Below are positions 14,611 to 24,196 of a stretch of DNA of 64,000 nt, one piece after another. Within the stretch, counting starts at the first letter, position 1, and each line of letters opens with the position of its first letter. A program made the translations under genes and the position numbers. The notes beneath the pieces were generated by a model. It saw nothing but the letters and a program-made list of their open reading frames with translations. It had not been told where the DNA came from and did not search any database. The stretch comes from Ralstonia pickettii DTP0602 (lineage in GTDB: Bacteria > Pseudomonadota > Gammaproteobacteria > Burkholderiales > Burkholderiaceae): assembly GCA_000471925.1 (NCBI GenBank), contig CP006667.1, positions 3,286,001 through 3,350,000 on the forward strand, in the 5' to 3' direction.

Positions 14611-15570
14611 TCAGCGCGCAGATGGCAGATGCGCCGGCCAGGCGCCACTCGCCACGAGTCCTTCGGCGATACCAATCAACTGGTTCCAGACAGCGTTGAC
14701 GGCCAGCGAAACGGGTGAAGTGGCTGACCTGCAGATGTACACCTGCCGCGCCAGGCCAGGATTCACGATCCGCGCGCACGACAGCAATCCGGCTTCCAGC
14801 TCCTGGCGTACGGCTGCATGGGAGAGGATCGTGTAACCGACACCAGCCGCCGTGAGTGCAATCAACTCCGGAATGGCGTTGACTTCCGCAACGATGCGCA
14901 ATTGCACATCATGCGACGCGCAGTGCCGCTCGATCAGGCTGCGCAGGCCATGCAAGCTGGCCGGCAGGATCATCGGCAGTTGCGACAGGTCGCCGAAGGA
15001 CACCGTCATGGCTTCCGCCACAGCGGCGCCGGGCAAGCTCGACAGCGTGCCCGGCGGGCCAACCAGCACTAGGTCTTCCTCCAGCAGCAGATCGCTGCGC
15101 AGCCCGGGTTCGGGGCCCCCGCCAAAGGTCATGCCGATATCGATATGCCCGGTCAGGAGGTTCTGGGGAATATAGCCAGTGCTCAACTCGATGATCTGCA
15201 GGTAAACGTCCGGCCAACGCGCGACAACTTCGCGCACCAGCGGGACCGTCACCAGCTTGGCCATCGATTGTGGCAATCCCACCGCCACGCGCCCCCTGGG
15301 TTCCCGCACAGCCGTACGGATCTCTTCGACCGCCACATCCACCCGCTTGAGGATATCGGCGGCATGGCCAAGCAGCATGACCCCCGCCGCTGTCGGCGTG
15401 ACACCTTTCGGGGTCCGGTCGAACAACGCCGTACCAAGCTCTTCTTCCAGGTTCTTGATCTGCAGGCTCAGGGCCGGCTGGGCCAGGTGCATGCGCTCGG
15501 CGGCGCGTGAAATGGAGCCGGCCGAGGCCACCGCCATAAAGGATCGGAGTGTGCGCAGGTCCAGGGCCAT
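14611..15570 (-). CDS. LysR-family regulator of the adjacent acid-utilisation cluster
   Basis: A 319-residue LysR regulator. The DNA-binding domain reads MALDLRTLRSFMAVASAGSI and continues AAERMHLAQPALSLQIKNLE; the effector domain starts near residue 90. The LAQPALS recognition helix is typical of the group. It is divergent from the Bug receptor gene (156 bases between starts), and a T-N11-A box lies between them, so it probably activates the receptor/CoA-transferase/hydratase operon in response to the acid or its CoA ester. An upstream ATG at 15600 is possible but adds ten residues outside the family. Confidence 0.92.
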   Translation of the reverse strand: MALDLRTLRSFMAVASAGSISRAAERMHLAQPALSLQIKNLEEELGTALFDRTPKGVTPTAAGVMLLGHAADILKRVDVAVEEIRTAVREPRGRVAVGLPQSMAKLVTVPLVREVVARWPDVYLQIIELSTGYIPQNLLTGHIDIGMTFGGGPEPGLRSDLLLEEDLVLVGPPGTLSSLPGAAVAEAMTVSFGDLSQLPMILPASLHGLRSLIERHCASHDVQLRIVAEVNAIPELIALTAAGVGYTILSHAAVRQELEAGLLSCARIVNPGLARQVYICRSATSPVSLAVNAVWNQLIGIAEGLVASGAWPAHLPSAR

Positions 15571-15602
15571 GCTGTTGTCCCGGTCAGAGTGAGAGTGCAT
15601 TT

Positions 15603-15623
15603 GGCATATTGGAATCTTATACC
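15603..15623. promoter_or_regulatory. LysR-type operator (T-N11-A box)
   Basis: GGCATA, nine bases, then TATACC: arms match at five of six positions and the inner bases fit the T-N11-A rule for LysR regulators. It lies 33 bases from the lysR start and about 100 from the Bug-receptor start, the usual place for the recognition site. Confidence 0.6.
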
Positions 15624-15725
15624 GGGCATCAAAAACTTGTCTTCGACATATACCCCGGCCGTCGCCAAGATGTCAGCCACATCGCCACATGGCGATCGAA
15701 GTTTGCTGACACACCGGAGACACCT

Positions 15726-16700
15726 ATGAACCCGAAACGCCGCTCGCTCATGCTCGGCGCCGCCGTGTCGATGCTGGCGCGGCCAGTGCTGGCCGCCGGC
15801 TGGCCAACGCGTCCCATCAAGCTCCTCGTGCCGTTCGCGGCAGGCGGACCGACCGATTTCATCGCCCGCCTGCTCGCCACGCCGCTTTCCCGCGAACTGG
15901 GGCAACCGGTCGTCATCGACAACCGGCCCGGAGCGAGCGGCAACCTGGGCGCACAGAACGTCCTGGACGCCGACGCCGACGGCTATACGCTGCTGCACAA
16001 CACCGTCGGCATGCACGCGGTCAATCCTCTGATGTACCCCAGTGCGCGCTTCCAGCCGCTACGCGACTTCAAACCGATTGCGACCACGGCTGCCATGCCC
16101 AACGTGCTGGTCGTGCACCCTGACAAACTCCCCGTCAGGTCTGTCGCAGACCTGGTGCGCATCGGCAAGTCCAGGGCCGACGGGCTCACCTATGCCACCT
16201 TCGGTGCCGGCACCTCGCCGCACATTTATGCGGCGCTGTTGCAGAAGGCGGCCGGTTTCAGCGCGATGGCGATTCCGTACAAGGGCAGTTCCCCCGCGCT
16301 GACCGATGTCATGGCCGGCCAGGTCGATTTCGTCTTCGACTCGTTCACGACCTGCATTGGCCAGATCCAGGGGGGCAAGCTGCGCGCGCTGGCAATCACT
16401 GCTTCGGGCCGCTCGCCGATGCTGCCCGATGTGCCAACGCTGAAAGAGGCTGGCTATCCCGACGTGGACAAGAAATTCTGGTTCTCGCTGCAAGCCCCGG
16501 CGCACACGCCCAAGGCGGTGATCGATCGGCTGCGCGCTGCGGCGGCGAAGGCAGTCGCAGATCCAGACTACATCGCCGCGCTGCGCGCACGGGGCGCAGA
16601 GCCCATGCCCACGCGCAGCAGCGAGCTCGACGCCTTCGTGCAACGTGACGCCGAACGCTGGACCTCGGTAGCACGCGGCCTCGGCATCAAACCTCAATGA
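15726..16700 (+). CDS. Bug-family periplasmic solute-binding receptor
   Basis: A 324-residue tripartite tricarboxylate transporter receptor of the Bug family. A signal peptide (MNPKRRSLMLGAAVSMLARP, then VLAA) is followed by the mature start GWPTRPIKLLVPFAAGGPTD, the classic Bug N-terminus. Bug proteins bind organic acids in the periplasm. Membrane partners (TctA/TctB) are missing here, as is usual for the many Bug genes in Cupriavidus and Bordetella. The downstream CaiB gene overlaps its stop by four bases, tying the receptor to a CoA-dependent catabolic route. Confidence 0.93.
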   Translation: MNPKRRSLMLGAAVSMLARPVLAAGWPTRPIKLLVPFAAGGPTDFIARLLATPLSRELGQPVVIDNRPGASGNLGAQNVLDADADGYTLLHNTVGMHAVNPLMYPSARFQPLRDFKPIATTAAMPNVLVVHPDKLPVRSVADLVRIGKSRADGLTYATFGAGTSPHIYAALLQKAAGFSAMAIPYKGSSPALTDVMAGQVDFVFDSFTTCIGQIQGGKLRALAITASGRSPMLPDVPTLKEAGYPDVDKKFWFSLQAPAHTPKAVIDRLRAAAAKAVADPDYIAALRARGAEPMPTRSSELDAFVQRDAERWTSVARGLGIKPQ

Positions 16701-17917
16701 ACGGACCAGTCACCATGCAACCATTGAAAGGCATCCGCGTCCTGGACCTGAGCAAAGTCCTGGCCGGACCGCTGTGCGGCCAGTACCTGGGCGAGCTTGG
16801 CGCGGACGTGACCAAGGTGGAGCCGATCGGCAAGGGCGACGATACCCGCGCCTGGCTGCCCCAGGAAGCCGGGCAGTCGGCCGTGTTCCTGTCCGTCAAC
16901 CACAACAAGCGCAGCATCGCCGTGGACCTGAAGAGCGAGGCTGGCCGCGAGGTGGTACAGCGCCTCGCGGCGCAGTCAGACGTGGTACTGCAGGGTTTCG
17001 GCGGCGGCACCGCGGCGAAGCTGGGTGTGGACTACGAAACCCTGCGCGCCCTCAATCCGCGGATGATCTACTGCGAGATCTCCGGCTACGGCCGTGACGG
17101 GCCGCTCGGACACGAGCCAGGCTATGACGTCATGCTGCAGGCATTCAGCGGCATGATCAGCACGATGGGGGAACCCGGAGGAAGCTATGCGCGCGCCAGC
17201 TTCTCACCCGTGGACATTGGCACAGGCATGCACGCGCTCAGCGGCATCCTGGCTGCCCTGATCGAGCGCCAGGCGACCGGCAAGGGCGTCTATGTGGAAG
17301 TGGCGCTGATGGAAACCGCGCTCGGCTTCATGGGCTACATGGCGCAGAATTATTGGCGCACGGGCGCCGTGCCGCAGAAAATGGGGACCGCGCACCCGTC
17401 GATGTCGCCTTACCAGGCGTTCGAGGCCGCCGACGGGCCGCTCATGCTCGGCGTCGGCAACGACGCGCAATGGCGCCGCTTCTGCGCCGTGGCAGAGCTG
17501 GACGACTGGGTGGATCACCCGGATTTCGCCACCAACGCCGACCGCGTCAGGAATTTCGCGCGTACCGTGGCGCTGGTGCAGGACCGCGTTGCCCGCAAGC
17601 CCTTGGACTTCTGGCTCAACGGCCTTCGGCAGGCCGGCGTTGCGTGTTCGCCGATCAATACCCTGGATCAGGCATTGAACCATCCTCAGGTGCAGGCGCG
17701 CGGGCTGATCGTCTCTTCACAGCATCCGGTTCTCGGCACTGTCAAGAACGTGGGGCTGCCTATCCGGTTCGGGCAGGCGCCGCGCACTGCCCGGCGCACC
17801 GCGCCGCTGCTTGGCGAACACACGAAAGCCATCCTCCATGAGGCTGGCTACGATCCGGAAGACATCGCCCGCCTGACACAAGCAGGCGCCGTCGCTACCA
17901 GCACGCCCTCTGCCTGA
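16697..17917 (+). CDS. CaiB/BaiF family (class III) CoA-transferase
   Basis: A 406-residue class III CoA-transferase. It opens PLKGIRVLDLSKVLAGPLCG and has the catalytic aspartate at D173 in SPVDIGTGMHALSG. It would load the imported acid with CoA from a donor such as succinyl-CoA or acetyl-CoA. The start overlaps the receptor stop (ATGA); a second ATG at 16715 is also possible. The enoyl-CoA hydratase gene follows after 23 bases. The exact acid cannot be told from sequence. Confidence 0.92.
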   Translation: MNGPVTMQPLKGIRVLDLSKVLAGPLCGQYLGELGADVTKVEPIGKGDDTRAWLPQEAGQSAVFLSVNHNKRSIAVDLKSEAGREVVQRLAAQSDVVLQGFGGGTAAKLGVDYETLRALNPRMIYCEISGYGRDGPLGHEPGYDVMLQAFSGMISTMGEPGGSYARASFSPVDIGTGMHALSGILAALIERQATGKGVYVEVALMETALGFMGYMAQNYWRTGAVPQKMGTAHPSMSPYQAFEAADGPLMLGVGNDAQWRRFCAVAELDDWVDHPDFATNADRVRNFARTVALVQDRVARKPLDFWLNGLRQAGVACSPINTLDQALNHPQVQARGLIVSSQHPVLGTVKNVGLPIRFGQAPRTARRTAPLLGEHTKAILHEAGYDPEDIARLTQAGAVATSTPSA

Positions 17918-17940
17918 AGCCTGAACAACCTGGAGCACTC

Positions 17941-18711
17941 ATGCCTCTTCTTTCTTACACCGTGCGCAACCATGTCGCGGAGATCCTGCTCGACAATCCA
18001 CCCGTCAATGCACTGACGATTCCGATGATCGGTGCCCTGCTGGATGCATTGGCGCAAGCCGCCGCAGACGATAGCGCGCGTGCGGTGATCATTGCCAGCG
18101 CCGTACCTGGCCGCTTCTGCGCGGGACTCGACATCGCAGCCCTGCAAGGCGCATCGCCGTCCGAGGTCCATACCCTGCTCGACAAGCTCTACGTCCAGCT
18201 ATGCGATGCCCAATACAACCTCGGCAAACCCTCCATCGCGGCGATCAGCGGCGCGGCGCGTGGTGGCGGCATGACGCTAGCGATCTCCTGCGACCTGATC
18301 GTGGCCGCGGAAAGCGCCACCTTTGGCTATCCGGAGATCGACGTCGGCATGCTGCCGGCGATCCACTTCACGCATCTGCCGCGCATCGTCGGCCGGCACG
18401 TGGCGTTCGACCTCCTGTTCACCGGGCGCGCGTTTGACGCGGCGCAAGCGCAGGCCATGCACCTGGTGAACCGTGTGGTGAAAGACGAGGACGTGCTCGC
18501 GCAAGCGCGCGCGCTGGCAGCGACGCTGGTGGGAAAATCGACAACGGCCATGCAGATGGGTCGCGCCGCCTTCCATCGCGCCGTTGACAGCGGCTATCGC
18601 CGCGGCGTGTCGTATGCGGTCGATACGTTTTGCCAGGTCGCGGCGACCGACGATGCCAGGGAAGGGATAGCTGCCTTTATGGAGAAGCGGCGCCCCGTGT
18701 GGGGCGCCTGA
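17941..18711 (+). CDS. Enoyl-CoA hydratase/isomerase family protein
   Basis: A 256-residue crotonase-fold protein. The CoA-binding and oxyanion-hole segments are visible as RFCAGLDIAALQG and AAISGAARGGGMTLAISCDL. It has FGYPEIDVGMLPA where hydratases carry their second catalytic glutamate, so hydratase or isomerase chemistry is likely, though crotonases vary widely. As the third gene of the operon it should act on the acyl-CoA made by the CaiB enzyme. A perfect 8-base hairpin (GGCGCCCC/GGGGCGCC, 18689-18708) covers its last codons and may help end transcription. Confidence 0.9.
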   Translation: MPLLSYTVRNHVAEILLDNPPVNALTIPMIGALLDALAQAAADDSARAVIIASAVPGRFCAGLDIAALQGASPSEVHTLLDKLYVQLCDAQYNLGKPSIAAISGAARGGGMTLAISCDLIVAAESATFGYPEIDVGMLPAIHFTHLPRIVGRHVAFDLLFTGRAFDAAQAQAMHLVNRVVKDEDVLAQARALAATLVGKSTTAMQMGRAAFHRAVDSGYRRGVSYAVDTFCQVAATDDAREGIAAFMEKRRPVWGA

Positions 18712-18758: not shown

Positions 18759-19565
18759 TCATGCGGCCATCACGCTGCGTTCGTCATCGGTCAGCTCAGG
18801 ACCATCCAGCGTGACGCGCGAATGGTCGTGGCGGAACTTGCGGATGATGGGCTTGAGCTCCTCCTTGACGTGCTTCTCGCTGTAGCCGTTGAACAGGTGG
18901 CCGGCCAGGCCGCGGCGCAGGTCGCTGGTGTCCATGAACCAGTCGGCGATCGGGAACGTGAGGTTCATGTTGTACTTCATCATGATGCCCATGTTGTGAT
19001 GTGCGGTGTGGTGGCGGCGGATCGTGTTGACAAAGGGCATGTTGCGCACGAACCAGTTCTCATGCACGTGGCAGCAGTAGTGGAAGGTCTCGTAGACCAG
19101 GTACTGCGCCACCATCGTCATGAACACGACCCAGCCGGCATTGCTGTTGAGCAGCACCGAGGCCAGGTAGCCGAGCGCACCGCCGCCTACGCCGAGCGTG
19201 GTCAGCACCCGCCACGGGAAGAACACGATGCGGAATTCGCGGGTGGTATCGATGGTCGGCTCTTCATCGGTGAAGTACTGGTGGTGCTGGCGCGTATGGC
19301 GCTCGTAGATGGCGCGCAGCGCGAACACGTCGATCCGGCGGTGCATCACGTACTTGTGCATCGCCCATTCGACGAAATTGCCGGCCAGGAACACCGGCAG
19401 CACCAGCGCCCATTCCCAGGCGGCGTGCTGCAGTTGCCCGAAGGCGTAATACAGCGCGGCGGCGCCGACGCCGTAGATCACCACGATATGCAGCAGGCCG
19501 TTGTAGAGCGGGCTGATATCGGCCTTGTACTGTTCGCGGAATTTGCGCTGCCGTTCGGTCATCAT
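18759..19565 (-). CDS. Membrane di-iron fatty acid hydroxylase superfamily protein
   Basis: A 268-residue membrane protein of the fatty acid hydroxylase/sterol desaturase superfamily. Histidine boxes are seen in HKYVMHRR, RHTRQHHQY, FHYCCHVHEN and RRHHTAHHNMG, enough for a di-iron centre. Hydrophobic segments lie near residues 24-45, 50-66 and 120-160. It would hydroxylate or desaturate a lipid-like or alkyl substrate at the membrane. The promoter carries the AACTAATATATTAG palindrome shared with the MFS and hydrolase genes, so it belongs to the same regulon. It converges with the hydratase gene. Confidence 0.88.
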   Translation of the reverse strand: MMTERQRKFREQYKADISPLYNGLLHIVVIYGVGAAALYYAFGQLQHAAWEWALVLPVFLAGNFVEWAMHKYVMHRRIDVFALRAIYERHTRQHHQYFTDEEPTIDTTREFRIVFFPWRVLTTLGVGGGALGYLASVLLNSNAGWVVFMTMVAQYLVYETFHYCCHVHENWFVRNMPFVNTIRRHHTAHHNMGIMMKYNMNLTFPIADWFMDTSDLRRGLAGHLFNGYSEKHVKEELKPIIRKFRHDHSRVTLDGPELTDDERSVMAA

Positions 19566-19591
19566 GGCTGTCTCCTCGTTTGATGATACGT

Positions 19592-19606
19592 AACTAATAT
19601 ATTAGT
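19592..19606. promoter_or_regulatory. Shared palindromic operator, copy 1 (hydroxylase promoter)
   Basis: AACTAATATATTAGT contains the perfect palindrome ACTAATATATTAGT (19593-19606), 28 bases upstream of the hydroxylase ATG. The same 14-mer AACTAATATATTAG occurs at two other promoters in the cluster. A very AT-rich site in this GC-rich DNA is unlikely by chance. Confidence 0.75.
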
Positions 19607-19697
19607 CGGATATCACGCCCTGTCAAGGCGCGTGGGGGATTTTTGCAGGGCCGATTTGCTGGCGCTCGCAGACCACGGCCAGCGCACCAAAAGCAAA

Positions 19698-19721
19698 GGC
19701 CCCTGTCTTGCGCCAGGGGCC
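19698..19721 (-). terminator. Rho-independent terminator of the MFS gene
   Basis: GGCCCCTG (19698-19705) pairs with CAGGGGCC (19714-19721). On the minus strand the stem is followed by TTTGCTTTTGG. It lies 23 bases after the MFS stop and separates that gene from the hydroxylase promoter. Confidence 0.8.
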
Positions 19722-19743
19722 ATCTCAGGGGAACTGCGGTGGG

Positions 19744-21123
19744 CTAGTTCGAGACTTCCTCCAGCGCCTTGCCCTTGGTCTCGACGCCGAACAGCAGCAC
19801 GACAACGGCCGCGACCGCAAACGACAGCGCCCCCATCGTGAACACGCCGCCCTGCCCCGCAACCGGGAGCAGCACGCCCACCAGGTAGGGGCCGGCAAGC
19901 GATCCCACCCGACCGATCGATGAGGCAAAGCCCGAGCCGGTGCCGCGCGACCGCGTGGGATACAGCTCCGGTGTATAGGCGTACAGCACCGACCACATGC
20001 CGAACAGGAAGAACTGCATGCACAGCCCGGCGGCAATCAGCTGCTCGACCGGCAGCCGGTGCACGGCGGCCTGGCCGTAGGCATACGCAGCCAGCGCGCT
20101 GCCGATGAGCATCAAGGCACAGGTCGGCTTGCGCCCCCACTTCTCCAGCAACCAGGCCGAGAACAGGAAGCCGGGAATGCCTGCCAGTGAGATGTAGACC
20201 GTGTACAGCACGGACTTGGTGACGGCATAGCCGGCCTGCTGCAGCAGCGCACCGAGCCAGGTGGTGAGGCCGTAGTAGCCGAGCAGCGCAAAGAACCAGA
20301 CCGCCCACAGCATCAGCGTGCGCTTTGCGTAGGGGCCGTGCCAGAGCTCGGCGAACAGCGCCTTGCGCGCACGCCGCTGCGGCGGGGCGAAGGTATCGTC
20401 AACCGGCGGCAGCGGCTTGCCGCTGGCGCGTTGCACGTGGTGCTCGATGTTCGCCATGATGTGGTCGGCTTCGCGGTCACGCCCCACTTCCTCGAGCCAG
20501 CGCGGCGACTCGGGCACGCGGCGGCGTACCACGAAGACAAAGACCGCCGGCACCGACAGGGCAATGAAGATGCCACGCCAGCCGATCACCGGCAGCAGGA
20601 AGTACGTCAGCACGCCCGCCGCGATAAAGCCGATGGGCCAGAAGCCTTCAAGGATTGCAACGTACTTGCCCCGGCTCTTTGCCGGGACGATCTCCGACAC
20701 CATCGACAGCCCGATCGGGAATTCCATGCCCATGCCGAAGCCGAGCAGCACGCGGTAGAGCATCAGCGCCGTCACGCTGTCAGCCAGCCCGCACATCAGG
20801 CTGCCCACGCCCCAGAAGATCATGCTGATCTGGAATACCGGCTTGCGCCCGAAGCGGTCCGCCAGCATGCCGGCCGAGGCCGCGCCGGCGAACATGCCGA
20901 GGAAACTGGCGCTGGCCAGCAGGCCGGCCTGCGCCGCGCTGAGCCCGAACTCGGCCTTGATCGAGCCGAGCACGAAGGTCATCAGCCCGAGGTCCATCGA
21001 ATCGAAGAACCATGCCGTGGCGATGATGCCAAACAATGAACGCTGGTAGCCCGTCATGGGCAAGCGTTCCAACCGGGCAGCGATCCCGGCGCTCAGCCTG
21101 AGGCTGCCTGCCGACATATCCAT
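19744..21123 (-). CDS. MFS transporter of the GntR-linked cluster
   Basis: A 459-residue major facilitator with 12 predicted helices. The cytoplasmic loop after helix 2 is DRFGRKPVF, and the loop after helix 6 contains RRRVPESPRWLEEVGRD, the signature of the sugar/aromatic-acid porter branch that includes NiaP and AAHS-like proteins. It likely imports a small organic compound used by the neighbouring enzymes. The palindromic operator lies 47 bases upstream of the ATG. A good terminator follows, so it appears to be its own transcription unit within the regulon. Confidence 0.9.
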   Translation of the reverse strand: MDMSAGSLRLSAGIAARLERLPMTGYQRSLFGIIATAWFFDSMDLGLMTFVLGSIKAEFGLSAAQAGLLASASFLGMFAGAASAGMLADRFGRKPVFQISMIFWGVGSLMCGLADSVTALMLYRVLLGFGMGMEFPIGLSMVSEIVPAKSRGKYVAILEGFWPIGFIAAGVLTYFLLPVIGWRGIFIALSVPAVFVFVVRRRVPESPRWLEEVGRDREADHIMANIEHHVQRASGKPLPPVDDTFAPPQRRARKALFAELWHGPYAKRTLMLWAVWFFALLGYYGLTTWLGALLQQAGYAVTKSVLYTVYISLAGIPGFLFSAWLLEKWGRKPTCALMLIGSALAAYAYGQAAVHRLPVEQLIAAGLCMQFFLFGMWSVLYAYTPELYPTRSRGTGSGFASSIGRVGSLAGPYLVGVLLPVAGQGGVFTMGALSFAVAAVVVLLFGVETKGKALEEVSN

Positions 21124-21169
21124 GTCTGTCTCCTGTGTGGTCTATGACGGCATCGGGGGCGCCATCTAG

Positions 21170-21183
21170 CTAATATATTAGTT
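21170..21183. promoter_or_regulatory. Shared palindromic operator, copy 2 (MFS promoter)
   Basis: CTAATATATTAGTT on the plus strand, which is AACTAATATATTAG on the minus strand, reading towards the MFS gene. The 12-base core CTAATATATTAG is a perfect palindrome. On the minus strand it is preceded by GATGC, matching GATAC at copy 3. Confidence 0.75.
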
Positions 21184-21292
21184 GCATCTCAGAAGCATGC
21201 AAGTGATAAACATTGGGTTTCAGGGAAAACCCCGTGAGGGGCAGCGATGGGATTTTTGGGGGCGGGCCTATGCAAGGCCCCCCGCGTGCCGC

Positions 21293-22558
21293 TCAGGCCG
21301 CCTGTCGTGCGTTGCCGGTCTCGGCGTGCAGCGTGCCGTGCCAGGCGTCGTGGATGATCTTGCTGTAGCACTGCGGCACGTCCGCCACCGGGAGTGCCTT
21401 GGCCAGTCGCGCGACGCCCAGCGCGTCGTGCACCAGTGAAGGAAGTTGTTCCTGGGCGATGCCGAAGTCGGCCAGGGTGCCTGGAATGCCGAGCGCCTCC
21501 ACCAGCTCGCGGATCACCAACGGCAGGCGCGCCACCCGCTCGGCTTCGCTACCCTGCACGATGCCGAACAGGTCCGCCACTTCCAGCAGTTCGGCACGCC
21601 GTTCCTGCGCGAGTGCGTCGAGCACATAGGGCAGCACCACCGCATTGGTGCTGCCGTGCGACTTGTGCGTGATGCCCGCCACGCCGTACGCAATGCCATG
21701 GACCGCGTTAAGCCCGGCGCTGCCATACGAGAGTGCCGCATAGAGGCTGGCGTAGGCCATCCCCACGCGCGCCTCGGTATCGCTGCCGTCCCGGTACACA
21801 CGCAGCAGGTAGCGCGCGCACAGGCGGATCGACTCGCGCGCGAACAGCATGGTGATGCCGTTGCGGCCGCTGTAGCCGGGATCGGGATTGCCGGCACGGT
21901 CATAGGCGAAGGAATCGATGGTCAGGTAGGACTCGATTGCATGGGTCAGCGCATCGATGCCGGCGTCGGCGGTAACGCGCGGCGGGCAGGTGTAGGTGAA
22001 CTCGGGATCGACCAGCGCAATGCCCGGGCGCAGCCGGTTGTCCATCACGGCGATCTTGGTGGCGTTGGCGGGATCGACCAGGATGGCGCCGGGCGTCGCT
22101 TCGGAGCCGGTGCCGGCGGTGGTCGGCAACGCCACCAGCGGCAGCACCGGCGTGGCACCATCGATGGTGCCGGCAAATGCGCCGATGGCGCGTCCTGCTG
22201 GTAAGGTCAGGCACAGCGCCTTGGCCAGGTCGATATTGCTGCCGCCCCCCAGCGCGATCACATGATCCGGCGCGCGACCGGCGAGGCGCGCACGCACCGA
22301 GGCCGTGGCGTCGTCGCACAGCGTGGTGGTGGGATCGGGGATGCCGCCGTCGTAGACCACGGTCTCGATGCCCAGGGCCCGCGCGGCTTCGACGTACTCC
22401 TTCACCCACGGGGTCTGGCTGGTGAAAAACGTATCCGTCACCAGCACCCCGCTGCGATAGCCAAGTTGCGCCAGCAGCGCGGGCAGGCCGGCACGCGTGC
22501 CAGGGCCGACGATCAGGCGCGAAGGCGCGCAGAAGAACACCAGGTCCTCAACTCTCAT
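21293..22558 (-). CDS. Iron-containing alcohol dehydrogenase
   Basis: A 421-residue group III (iron) alcohol dehydrogenase. The NAD-binding loop is ALGGGSNIDLAK, followed by PTTAGTGSEATPGAI. The metal ligands appear in TADAGIDALTHAIESY and NAVHGIAYGVAGITHKSHG (one Asp and three His). It would interconvert an alcohol and an aldehyde or ketone with NAD(P)H. The family also holds maleylacetate reductases and hydroxyacid dehydrogenases, so the substrate is open. It lies 21 bases downstream of the hydrolase gene on the same strand, so the two should share one message under operator copy 3. Confidence 0.9.
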   Translation of the reverse strand: MRVEDLVFFCAPSRLIVGPGTRAGLPALLAQLGYRSGVLVTDTFFTSQTPWVKEYVEAARALGIETVVYDGGIPDPTTTLCDDATASVRARLAGRAPDHVIALGGGSNIDLAKALCLTLPAGRAIGAFAGTIDGATPVLPLVALPTTAGTGSEATPGAILVDPANATKIAVMDNRLRPGIALVDPEFTYTCPPRVTADAGIDALTHAIESYLTIDSFAYDRAGNPDPGYSGRNGITMLFARESIRLCARYLLRVYRDGSDTEARVGMAYASLYAALSYGSAGLNAVHGIAYGVAGITHKSHGSTNAVVLPYVLDALAQERRAELLEVADLFGIVQGSEAERVARLPLVIRELVEALGIPGTLADFGIAQEQLPSLVHDALGVARLAKALPVADVPQCYSKIIHDAWHGTLHAETGNARQAA

Positions 22559-22579
22559 CGATGACTCCTTGGGAAACGT

Positions 22580-23311
22580 TCAGGCGGCAGTAGGTGTCGC
22601 AGCGGCGAGCCGCGGCAAGTGCGCGCGCACGGCAGCGGCGACATCTGCGGTATTGGCGGCCAGGATGCCGTGGCCAGCGCCGGGCAGCATCACGAGGCTG
22701 GCCTCGGGCAGGCCTGCGGCCAGCGCGCGGGCATGCTGAGCCGGGCAATCGTCATCAGCTTCGCCATGCACAACCAGCGCGGGCAGGCGCAGCGACGGCA
22801 GCCGGCCGCGCTGGTCGGTGATGCGCAGTGCCTGCCAGGTCCAGGCCACGGTCTGGTGGTCGGCCGCCTGCGCCAGCCCCAGGCGCCGCTCGCGCGCCGC
22901 GATCTCGGCCAGCAAATGCGGCTCGTCGGTGGCCCGGAACCACCGCGCCGAAGTCAGTTGCGGCGAACCGGACAGCAGCAGCAGGCCGCTGGGACCGCGT
23001 CCGTCGCGAAGGGACTGCGCCGCGAGGCACAGTGCCACCGACACGCCCATGCTCCAGCCTGCCAGCACGTAGGGTTCGTCACCCGCCTCGGCCTCGATCA
23101 CCGCGCGCAGCATGGCCGCATAGCTCTCCAGCGTGCAATCGGTCGGCGACACAGGTCGGGCTGCGTCCCCGCGTCCCCACAGGTTCGGCAGCACAAAGCG
23201 GCATTCGCGCCGCAGCGCCTGCGCCAGCGGCAGCCACGCGGCGTTGGTACCCTGGATGCCGTGCACCGCCACCACGCGCACCGGCCCCTCACCGCTTCGC
23301 AAAATATCCAT
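22580..23311 (-). CDS. Alpha/beta hydrolase of the GntR-linked cluster
   Basis: A 243-residue alpha/beta hydrolase with the nucleophile serine in LAGWSMGVSV (about residue 85), the acid in HGEADDDCP and the histidine in GAGHGIL. The oxyanion segment is VHGIQGTNAAW. It is likely an esterase or C-C hydrolase. First gene of a two-gene unit with the iron alcohol dehydrogenase. Operator copy 3 lies only 18 bases upstream of the ATG, where it would overlap the start of transcription or the ribosome site, which suggests repression. Confidence 0.88.
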   Translation of the reverse strand: MDILRSGEGPVRVVAVHGIQGTNAAWLPLAQALRRECRFVLPNLWGRGDAARPVSPTDCTLESYAAMLRAVIEAEAGDEPYVLAGWSMGVSVALCLAAQSLRDGRGPSGLLLLSGSPQLTSARWFRATDEPHLLAEIAARERRLGLAQAADHQTVAWTWQALRITDQRGRLPSLRLPALVVHGEADDDCPAQHARALAAGLPEASLVMLPGAGHGILAANTADVAAAVRAHLPRLAAATPTAA

Positions 23312-23328
23312 ATCCCTCTTCCGTCCAT

Positions 23329-23342
23329 CTAATATATTAGTT
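23329..23342. promoter_or_regulatory. Shared palindromic operator, copy 3 (hydrolase/gntR divergent promoter)
   Basis: CTAATATATTAGTT lies between the divergent hydrolase (start 23311) and gntR genes. On the minus strand it reads GATAC then AACTAATATATTAG, almost as in copy 2. Its place beside the regulator gene is the main reason to assign all three copies to that GntR protein. Confidence 0.75.
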
Positions 23343-23365
23343 GTATCATAGCAGCAGACGGAAAT

Positions 23366-24196
23366 ATGGCAATGAAGAATACGAACGCCGCCCTTACCCT
23401 CCCCGCGGGGGAACTGCCCGGAACGTCATATACAATTGACAACCTGCGCACACTACCGACCGCAATGACTGGCACTGGCAAGATGGCAACCCGCAATAAG
23501 GCAGCCCCGCCTCCGGCCGAGGACGAAGCGGCCGAGCAGACCCCCGGACTGCGCGGCCGGCTGACCGACCTCGCCTACGAACAGATCGAGGAAGCGATCA
23601 TCACGCTGCGGCTGGCGCCCGGCTCATCGATCTCGGAACTGCAACTGAGCGAGATGACCGGCATCGGGCGCACGCCGATCCGCGAAGCCATCCAGCGCCT
23701 GGCGCGCGAGCACCTGGTGGTCGTGTTGCCGCAACGGGGCCTGCTGGTGCCGCCCATCGACGTGGGCAAGCAACTGCGGCTGCTGGAAACCCGCCGCGAA
23801 GTCGAACGGCTGATCTGCCGCAGCGCCGCGCGCCGCGCCAACGCCGACGAACGCGCGCACTTCAAGCGCCTGGCCACGGAATTCGCGCAGTCCGCCAAGA
23901 ACGGCGACGATGTGTCCTTCGTGCGCGCCGACCGCGAGTTCAATGAGCTATGCCTGGCCGCCGCGCGCAACGAGTTTGCCGAAGGCGCGATGCGGTTGAT
24001 GCACGGGCTGTCTCGACGCTTCTGGTATCTGCACTACAAGGAAGCTGCGGACCTGCCGCAGATGGCCAAGCTGCATGCCAATGTGGCGGCGGCCATTGCC
24101 AAGGGGGATATCGACGGAGCGGGCAAGGCGCTGGATGCGCTGCTGGACAATATCGAGGATTTCACGCGGGCTACGGTACTGGGCGATCGGCGCTGA
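23366..24196 (+). CDS. GntR-family (FCD/FadR group) transcriptional regulator
   Basis: A protein of up to 276 residues. The winged helix-turn-helix spans about residues 66-130 (LAYEQIEEAIITLRLAPGSS, then MTGIGRTPIREAIQRLAREH) and an all-helical FCD effector domain follows (about 140-265), with RREVERL and the late HANVAAAIAKGD segment. The first 33 residues are not family-like and contain TACAAT at 23431-23436, so the true start may be the ATG at 23465 or 23483. It is divergent from the hydrolase gene across operator copy 3 and is the obvious regulator of the cluster. Confidence 0.9.
   Translation: MAMKNTNAALTLPAGELPGTSYTIDNLRTLPTAMTGTGKMATRNKAAPPPAEDEAAEQTPGLRGRLTDLAYEQIEEAIITLRLAPGSSISELQLSEMTGIGRTPIREAIQRLAREHLVVVLPQRGLLVPPIDVGKQLRLLETRREVERLICRSAARRANADERAHFKRLATEFAQSAKNGDDVSFVRADREFNELCLAAARNEFAEGAMRLMHGLSRRFWYLHYKEAADLPQMAKLHANVAAAIAKGDIDGAGKALDALLDNIEDFTRATVLGDRR

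Follow-up and report, generated by a model that had tools for sequence, protein, structure and literature searches.

Introduction

Atu1419, a VanR-type FCD-GntR repressor of hydroxycinnamate degradation in Agrobacterium fabrum, has three identical short palindromes at its target promoters, with local catabolic genes under its control; two of these promoters each have the −10 box covered by one palindrome (PMC7797058). Here, we describe a locus of similar arrangement in a 64,000-base stretch of Ralstonia pickettii DTP0602 (the window; C1:3286001-3350000 of its genome), in which three copies of a palindrome, CTAATATATTAG, stand before genes for a membrane hydroxylase (HYD), an importer (MFS) and a hydrolase-dehydrogenase unit (ABH and ADH), beside the gene of an FCD-type GntR regulator (GNTR). 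Atu1419 is the closest working model for this locus, although its palindrome, ATGTATACAT, is of the GT..AC type and the genes it controls are others (PMC7797058). The Atu1419 structure (6z74) matches the GNTR model only in part (TM 0.47–0.52, 19% identity). The best Foldseek matches of that model, AlkR/VanR (9isw), McbR/YncC (4p9f) and PmiR (7xp1), share its fold; at 19–26% identity, they are likened to it by fold alone.

GT..AC boxes are usual for the FadR subfamily without defining it, and CTAATATATTAG lacks them; in our reading, it would align to TNGT-N2-ACNA only with A/T replacing G/C. Exceptions to the FadR-subfamily operator rule include BioR and NanR (PMC4494728). BioR, a regulator of the GntR-FadR type, recognizes TTATMKATAA, which like CTAATATATTAG is an A/T palindrome without GT..AC boxes (PMC4494728). 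In the literature searched (open-licence PMC papers), we recognized no account of the regulon described here, and the text of CTAATATATTAG occurs there in only two papers, both with unrelated titles.

Results and Discussion

A preliminary description of the window placed the 14-mer AACTAATATATTAG at 19592-19605 (plus strand), 21170-21183 and 23329-23342 (both minus strand). It also reported that each copy precedes a minus-strand unit (hydroxylase, MFS and hydrolase-dehydrogenase), the third standing also beside the divergent gntR gene. All of these placements were exact. No fourth copy had been noticed in the window, and a search allowing up to 3 mismatches returned the same three places only (6 strand matches, compared with a mean of 0.10 and a maximum of 2 in 100 shuffles). 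The real unit, however, is the 12-bp perfect palindrome CTAATATATTAG and not the 14-mer:

19594-19605: operator 1, CTAATATATTAG, 28 bases before the hydroxylase start, holding a predicted −10 box
21170-21181: operator 2, CTAATATATTAG, 46 bases before the MFS start
23329-23340: operator 3, CTAATATATTAG, in the interval that separates the hydrolase gene (start 17 bases away) from the divergent gntR

The genes concerned are as follows:

18759-19565, minus strand: HYD, membrane di-iron hydroxylase of the FA_hydroxylase/sterol desaturase type
19744-21123, minus strand: MFS importer, nearest to aromatic acid/H+ symporters
21293-22558, minus strand: ADH, alcohol dehydrogenase of the iron-containing type (type III), following the hydrolase gene after 21 bases
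22580-23311, minus strand: ABH, alpha/beta hydrolase, first gene of the hydrolase-dehydrogenase unit
23366-24196, plus strand: GNTR, GntR-FCD regulator; several orthologs begin at a point corresponding to 23465, which is a candidate for its true start

The genome (8,125,850 bases, 3 contigs) holds one additional exact copy of CTAATATATTAG, outside the cluster at C1:2298356, and the reversed CTAATATATTAG used as a control had no match anywhere in it. Because the flanks of this fourth copy differ, exact AACTAATATATTAG is confined to the three window sites. The shared GAT(A/G)C of copies 2 and 3 had been correctly read, and is part of the weak outer boxes in a broader motif, TATnCAACTAATATATTAGTTGnATA, derived from 99 non-identical sites; weak outer boxes near GntR sites have been described (PMC4494728). 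A genome-wide search with the degenerate pattern CTRAYATRTYAG gave no regulon members beyond the four copies. The single palindrome with one mismatch, CTAATGTATTAG at C3:212514 (position 5515 of L007), stands before no clear gene start.

A profile of 22 GNTR orthologs yielded 570 confirmed stretches, and the best 80 of these make up the loci compared here. The cluster genes recur in them whole or in part and reordered, preceded by the palindrome or one much like it; the genera include Cupriavidus, Pandoraea, Oxalicibacterium, Herminiimonas, Paraburkholderia, Caballeronia, Trinickia, Achromobacter, Alcaligenes and Advenella, among others. The HYD promoter is the most conserved operator target: 58 of 74 HYD matches have an upstream site with at most 2 mismatches, compared with 23/34 for MFS, 22/35 for ABH, 4/40 for ADH and 26/88 for GNTR (counts include the window and paralogous matches). 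The pattern CTRAYATRTYAG occurs at 80 sites in the 80 loci, and 70 of these, in 52 loci, lie upstream of the five core families, where random positions fall 5.6% of the time. As a control, 359 rearranged half-sites were made; five still allowed CTAATA (22–49 sites) and were set apart, and the remaining 354 together gave only 10 upstream hits against the 70.

Within the genus, exact CTAATATATTAG was found in 43 of 60 genomes, in 72 copies, and the reversed control in none. The preliminary description had proposed scanning related Cupriavidus genomes for genes behind the motif; 40 of the 72 copies do belong to this cluster, but 32 stand at two other types of FCD-GntR regulator, 25 at the pair GNTR2/ILVD (an FCD-GntR gene and an arabinonate dehydratase gene) and 7 at a third FCD-GntR. 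These 72 comprise the 3 window copies and 69 that were re-fetched and placed (37, 25 and 7, respectively). Orthologs of GNTR (at least 76% identity) are present in 26 of the 60 genomes.

Could AT-rich palindromes of promoter regions have been mistaken for operators? The motif is AT-rich, and across the order the exact 12-mer occurs in 27 of 399 genomes, hardly above the reversed control (about 20). Yet the genus counts, the position of every genus copy at an FCD-GntR cluster and the rearranged half-site control all reject a chance origin, which we regard as extremely improbable. Sequence comparison instead indicates a real GntR regulon, widely conserved from Cupriavidus through other Burkholderiales into more distant genomes and defined around a widespread hydroxylase.

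The mode of control is suggested by the promoters. A scan of 5.6 kb returned two promoter-like sites, both at operators (shuffles gave a mean of 0.9):

19599-19626, minus strand: predicted promoter TTGACA-16-TAATAT of the hydroxylase gene, its −10 inside operator 1
23345-23372, minus strand: predicted promoter TTGCCA-16-TATGAT for the hydrolase-dehydrogenase unit, its −10 separated by 4 bases from operator 3 downstream

Among relatives, a TTGACA-like −35 (at least 5/6) at 15–18 bp was present at 30 of 57 HYD sites, window included, whereas in 300 shuffles the number of sites in this register averaged 1.0 and never exceeded 4. Since the operator lies over the −10 box of the HYD promoter, the most likely role of GNTR is to repress this promoter by blocking RNA polymerase. 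The −10 of the hydrolase promoter ends 4 bases before operator 3, so that this operator would cover the start point.

We therefore propose the following working scheme. A GNTR dimer would bind CTAATATATTAG as a local repressor and keep RNA polymerase off, covering the HYD −10 box and probably also the start point of the hydrolase-dehydrogenase promoter. By family precedent, the operator would be freed when an inducer binds the FCD domain; the imported acid, or the first compound formed from it, is the probable inducer. Derepression would then produce the MFS importer, the membrane di-iron hydroxylase, the alpha/beta hydrolase and the Fe-type alcohol dehydrogenase, by which one organic acid could be imported, hydroxylated in an O2-dependent step, hydrolyzed at an ester or lactone bond and oxidized at an alcohol group; these roles are taken from the enzyme families, and the order of steps is inferred. 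Taken alone, the regulon and its repression are very probable. The whole explanation of repressor, inducer release and enzyme pathway, leaving aside any guess at the substrate, is somewhat more probable than its negation. The operator would also provide a handle on the substrate, namely whatever derepresses the hydroxylase promoter.

Several observations weigh against this account. In 28 of the 80 loci, CTRAYATRTYAG is missing before the core genes, and this degenerate pattern came from the same loci in which it was counted. The site beside gntR is not generally kept: the palindrome near the regulator's own gene, expected in the preliminary description, is present in the window as operator 3 but is not a general feature of relatives (26 of 88 GNTR matches). 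Autoregulation as the main role was rejected on this count, many of these sites being shared with the divergent hydrolase gene. HYD and GntR are also found without ADH, ABH and MFS; therefore, the four genes need not occur together. The −35 enrichment is absent at MFS (0/22), ABH (1/22) and GNTR (0/26) sites, and blocking of the −10 is thus indicated for HYD only. Finally, the identical 12-mer stands beside two other FCD-GntR regulators of the genus. Of the earlier proposal that one regulator governs all four genes, what stands is that a single operator family recurs before HYD, MFS and ABH-ADH; what does not is that the 12-mer is private to GNTR. That all cluster genes serve one compound is plausible.

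The shared 12-mer raises the alternative of a network in which several FCD-GntR regulators use the same operator, GNTR2 also controls the window genes, and the regulons are cross-regulated. All 69 re-fetched genus copies adjoin one of the three regulator types, and the 12-mer is the same even though these regulators are only 23–27% identical. However, the flanks of CTAATATATTAG differ by regulator class, beyond the genus the site follows the GNTR/HYD set, and a GNTR ortholog is missing from 15 of the 25 genomes that carry the GNTR2-type site, so this site is kept without GNTR. We consider such a network unlikely. Because CTAATATATTAG stands beside three regulator types, the 12-mer alone fails to name the regulator, while conserved linkage does. 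Three FCD regulators of about 25% identity with the same 12-mer would lend themselves to testing how cross-talk between GntR paralogs is avoided.

The fourth copy in the R. pickettii genome is flanked on one side by a gene for L-arabinonate dehydratase (1083 bits by NCBIfam, cut-off 882) and on the other by a second, divergent FCD-GntR gene (L006 3549-6167, around C1:2298356), an arrangement seen at 25 of the 69 re-fetched genus sites. At the third FCD-GntR, with a TctC gene nearby, CTAATATATTAG is ∼240 bases from the matched coding region in 7 genus genomes (L166, L172, L174, L177, L186, L190 and L194).

GntR regulators can also activate. It is conceivable that GNTR activates some units, recruiting or repositioning polymerase at the MFS and hydrolase sites, where the −35 is not conserved. 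FadR, which positively regulates fabA and fabB, provides a precedent in the family (PMC4537474). An ordinary upstream activator site would nevertheless not be expected as close as 46 or 17 bases to the start codons, and at HYD the −10 itself is covered; activation seems slightly less likely still than the cross-regulated network, and we retain repression by GNTR as the preferred reading.

Beyond the core genes, the operator accompanies a changing set of modules. The pattern CTRAYATRTYAG also stands before genes for PanB (L111, L114, L117), PhyH (L133, L134, L138, L141), a HAAT importer (L096, L097, L099), a CDO-like protein (L078, L085, L091), GlcD (L081, L088) and a corrinoid protein (L121). 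Gene counts in the 80 loci were HYD 68, ADH 38, MFS 30, ABH 25, TRAP 19, PanB 17, HAAT 13, TctC 12, PhyH 11, CDO-like 7, corrinoid 6, FAD oxidoreductase 6 and GlcDE 5. By tblastn, HYD is present in 71 of the loci, as the gene caller missed it in L127, L145 and L146. MFS occurs with neither TRAP nor HAAT, and these last two occur together once; PanB never accompanies ADH, and corrinoid genes never accompany ADH or ABH. This exclusivity of importers and back ends may follow clades. Labels of distant modules rest on one representative per cluster: PanB and GlcE scored above the NCBIfam cut-offs and GlcD below, and RACo, MTHFR, URO-D, B12-binding and pterin-binding domains were labelled by Pfam. 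Corrinoid methyl-transfer genes adjoin GntR orthologs in L105, L108, L119, L121, L126 and L129; these sets include URO-D and B12-binding genes and, in part, RACo, pterin-binding and MTHFR genes.

Since importers are swapped and PanB or corrinoid C1 genes replace the hydrolase and dehydrogenase, a methyl- or alkoxy-bearing organic acid is hinted at. Our guess at the substrate class, a doubtful one, is accordingly a small carboxylic acid that bears a methyl or alkoxy group. We considered methoxyacetate-like acids in view of the corrinoid cassette, GlcDE and Fe-ADH, gem-dimethyl acids as targets of cleavage by PanB, thiol or sulfonium acids for the CDO-like gene, and methoxylated aromatics for the MFS type; none was supported enough, and none was eliminated; the excerpt of PMC9765439 holds nothing bearing on the substrate. 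We also entertain, with less than even confidence but more readily than the substrate class, that these loci represent an undescribed aerobic catabolic pathway, centered on a membrane di-iron hydroxylase whose substrate is an imported organic acid, and governed by a single GntR operator family with exchangeable modules. Lineages would exchange importers (MFS, TRAP, HAAT or TTT) and back ends (hydrolase plus Fe-ADH; PanB with or without a corrinoid methyl-transfer cassette; PhyH), the operator being set anew before each exchanged module. If so, a methyl or alkoxy group would be the point of attack for the hydroxylase, and the C1 or C2 product would be left to the alternative back ends.

Relatives of HYD are also borne on plasmids (L202, L203, L204, L205, L206), near a small DUF6166 gene, with varying importers and alcohol dehydrogenases. 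We inspected 7 of 24 plasmid records, one of them without annotation; the six annotated ones hold a GntR gene in 4/6, DUF6166 in 5/6, an alpha/beta hydrolase in 3/6 and panB in 1/6. No GntR gene was seen in the Dinoroseobacter and Indioceanicola plasmid stretches around the HYD relative.

Family assignments of the window proteins were made by profile and fold. GNTR has an N-terminal winged helix-turn-helix (PF00392, 56.8 bits, cut-off 27) and a C-terminal FCD domain (PF07729, 75.1 bits, cut-off 24.3), and FCD structures top its fold search. Its identification as PhnR (TIGR03338) was rejected, at 71.3 bits against an equivalog cut-off of 271.5. A profile scan of the window HYD protein with PF04116 gave no match; both HYD orthologs scanned exceeded the cut-off of 31 (36.6 and 34.8 bits), and many listed HYD homologs carry this family. 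The fold comparison, among 464 Foldseek-ranked chains, places HYD with FA_hydroxylase. H70, H75, H90, H94, H95, H185, H186, H189 and H190 are invariant in 31 aligned sequences; these histidine boxes presumably bind the iron of the di-iron site. HYD shares histidine boxes and a membrane helical fold with the sphingolipid hydroxylase Scs7p (4zr0) and the FA_hydroxylase family; unlike Scs7p, to which it is 14% identical, it clusters with organic-acid importers and not with lipid synthesis genes. It has 2,484 database relatives at E 1e-3, and among the best 120 of these, those named bear only family names or “hypothetical”. MFS belongs to PF07690; its best NCBIfam match, the aromatic acid/H+ symporter family TIGR00895, stayed below the subfamily cut-off (291.5 bits against 418.55). 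ADH is an iron-containing alcohol dehydrogenase (PF00465, 130 bits, cut-off 31.3) and reached no equivalog cut-off in NCBIfam. No operator was found in the neighboring part of the window, 14611-18711, where a LysR gene (minus strand) is followed by a plus-strand row of TctC, CoA-transferase III and enoyl-CoA hydratase genes, convergent with the hydroxylase gene.
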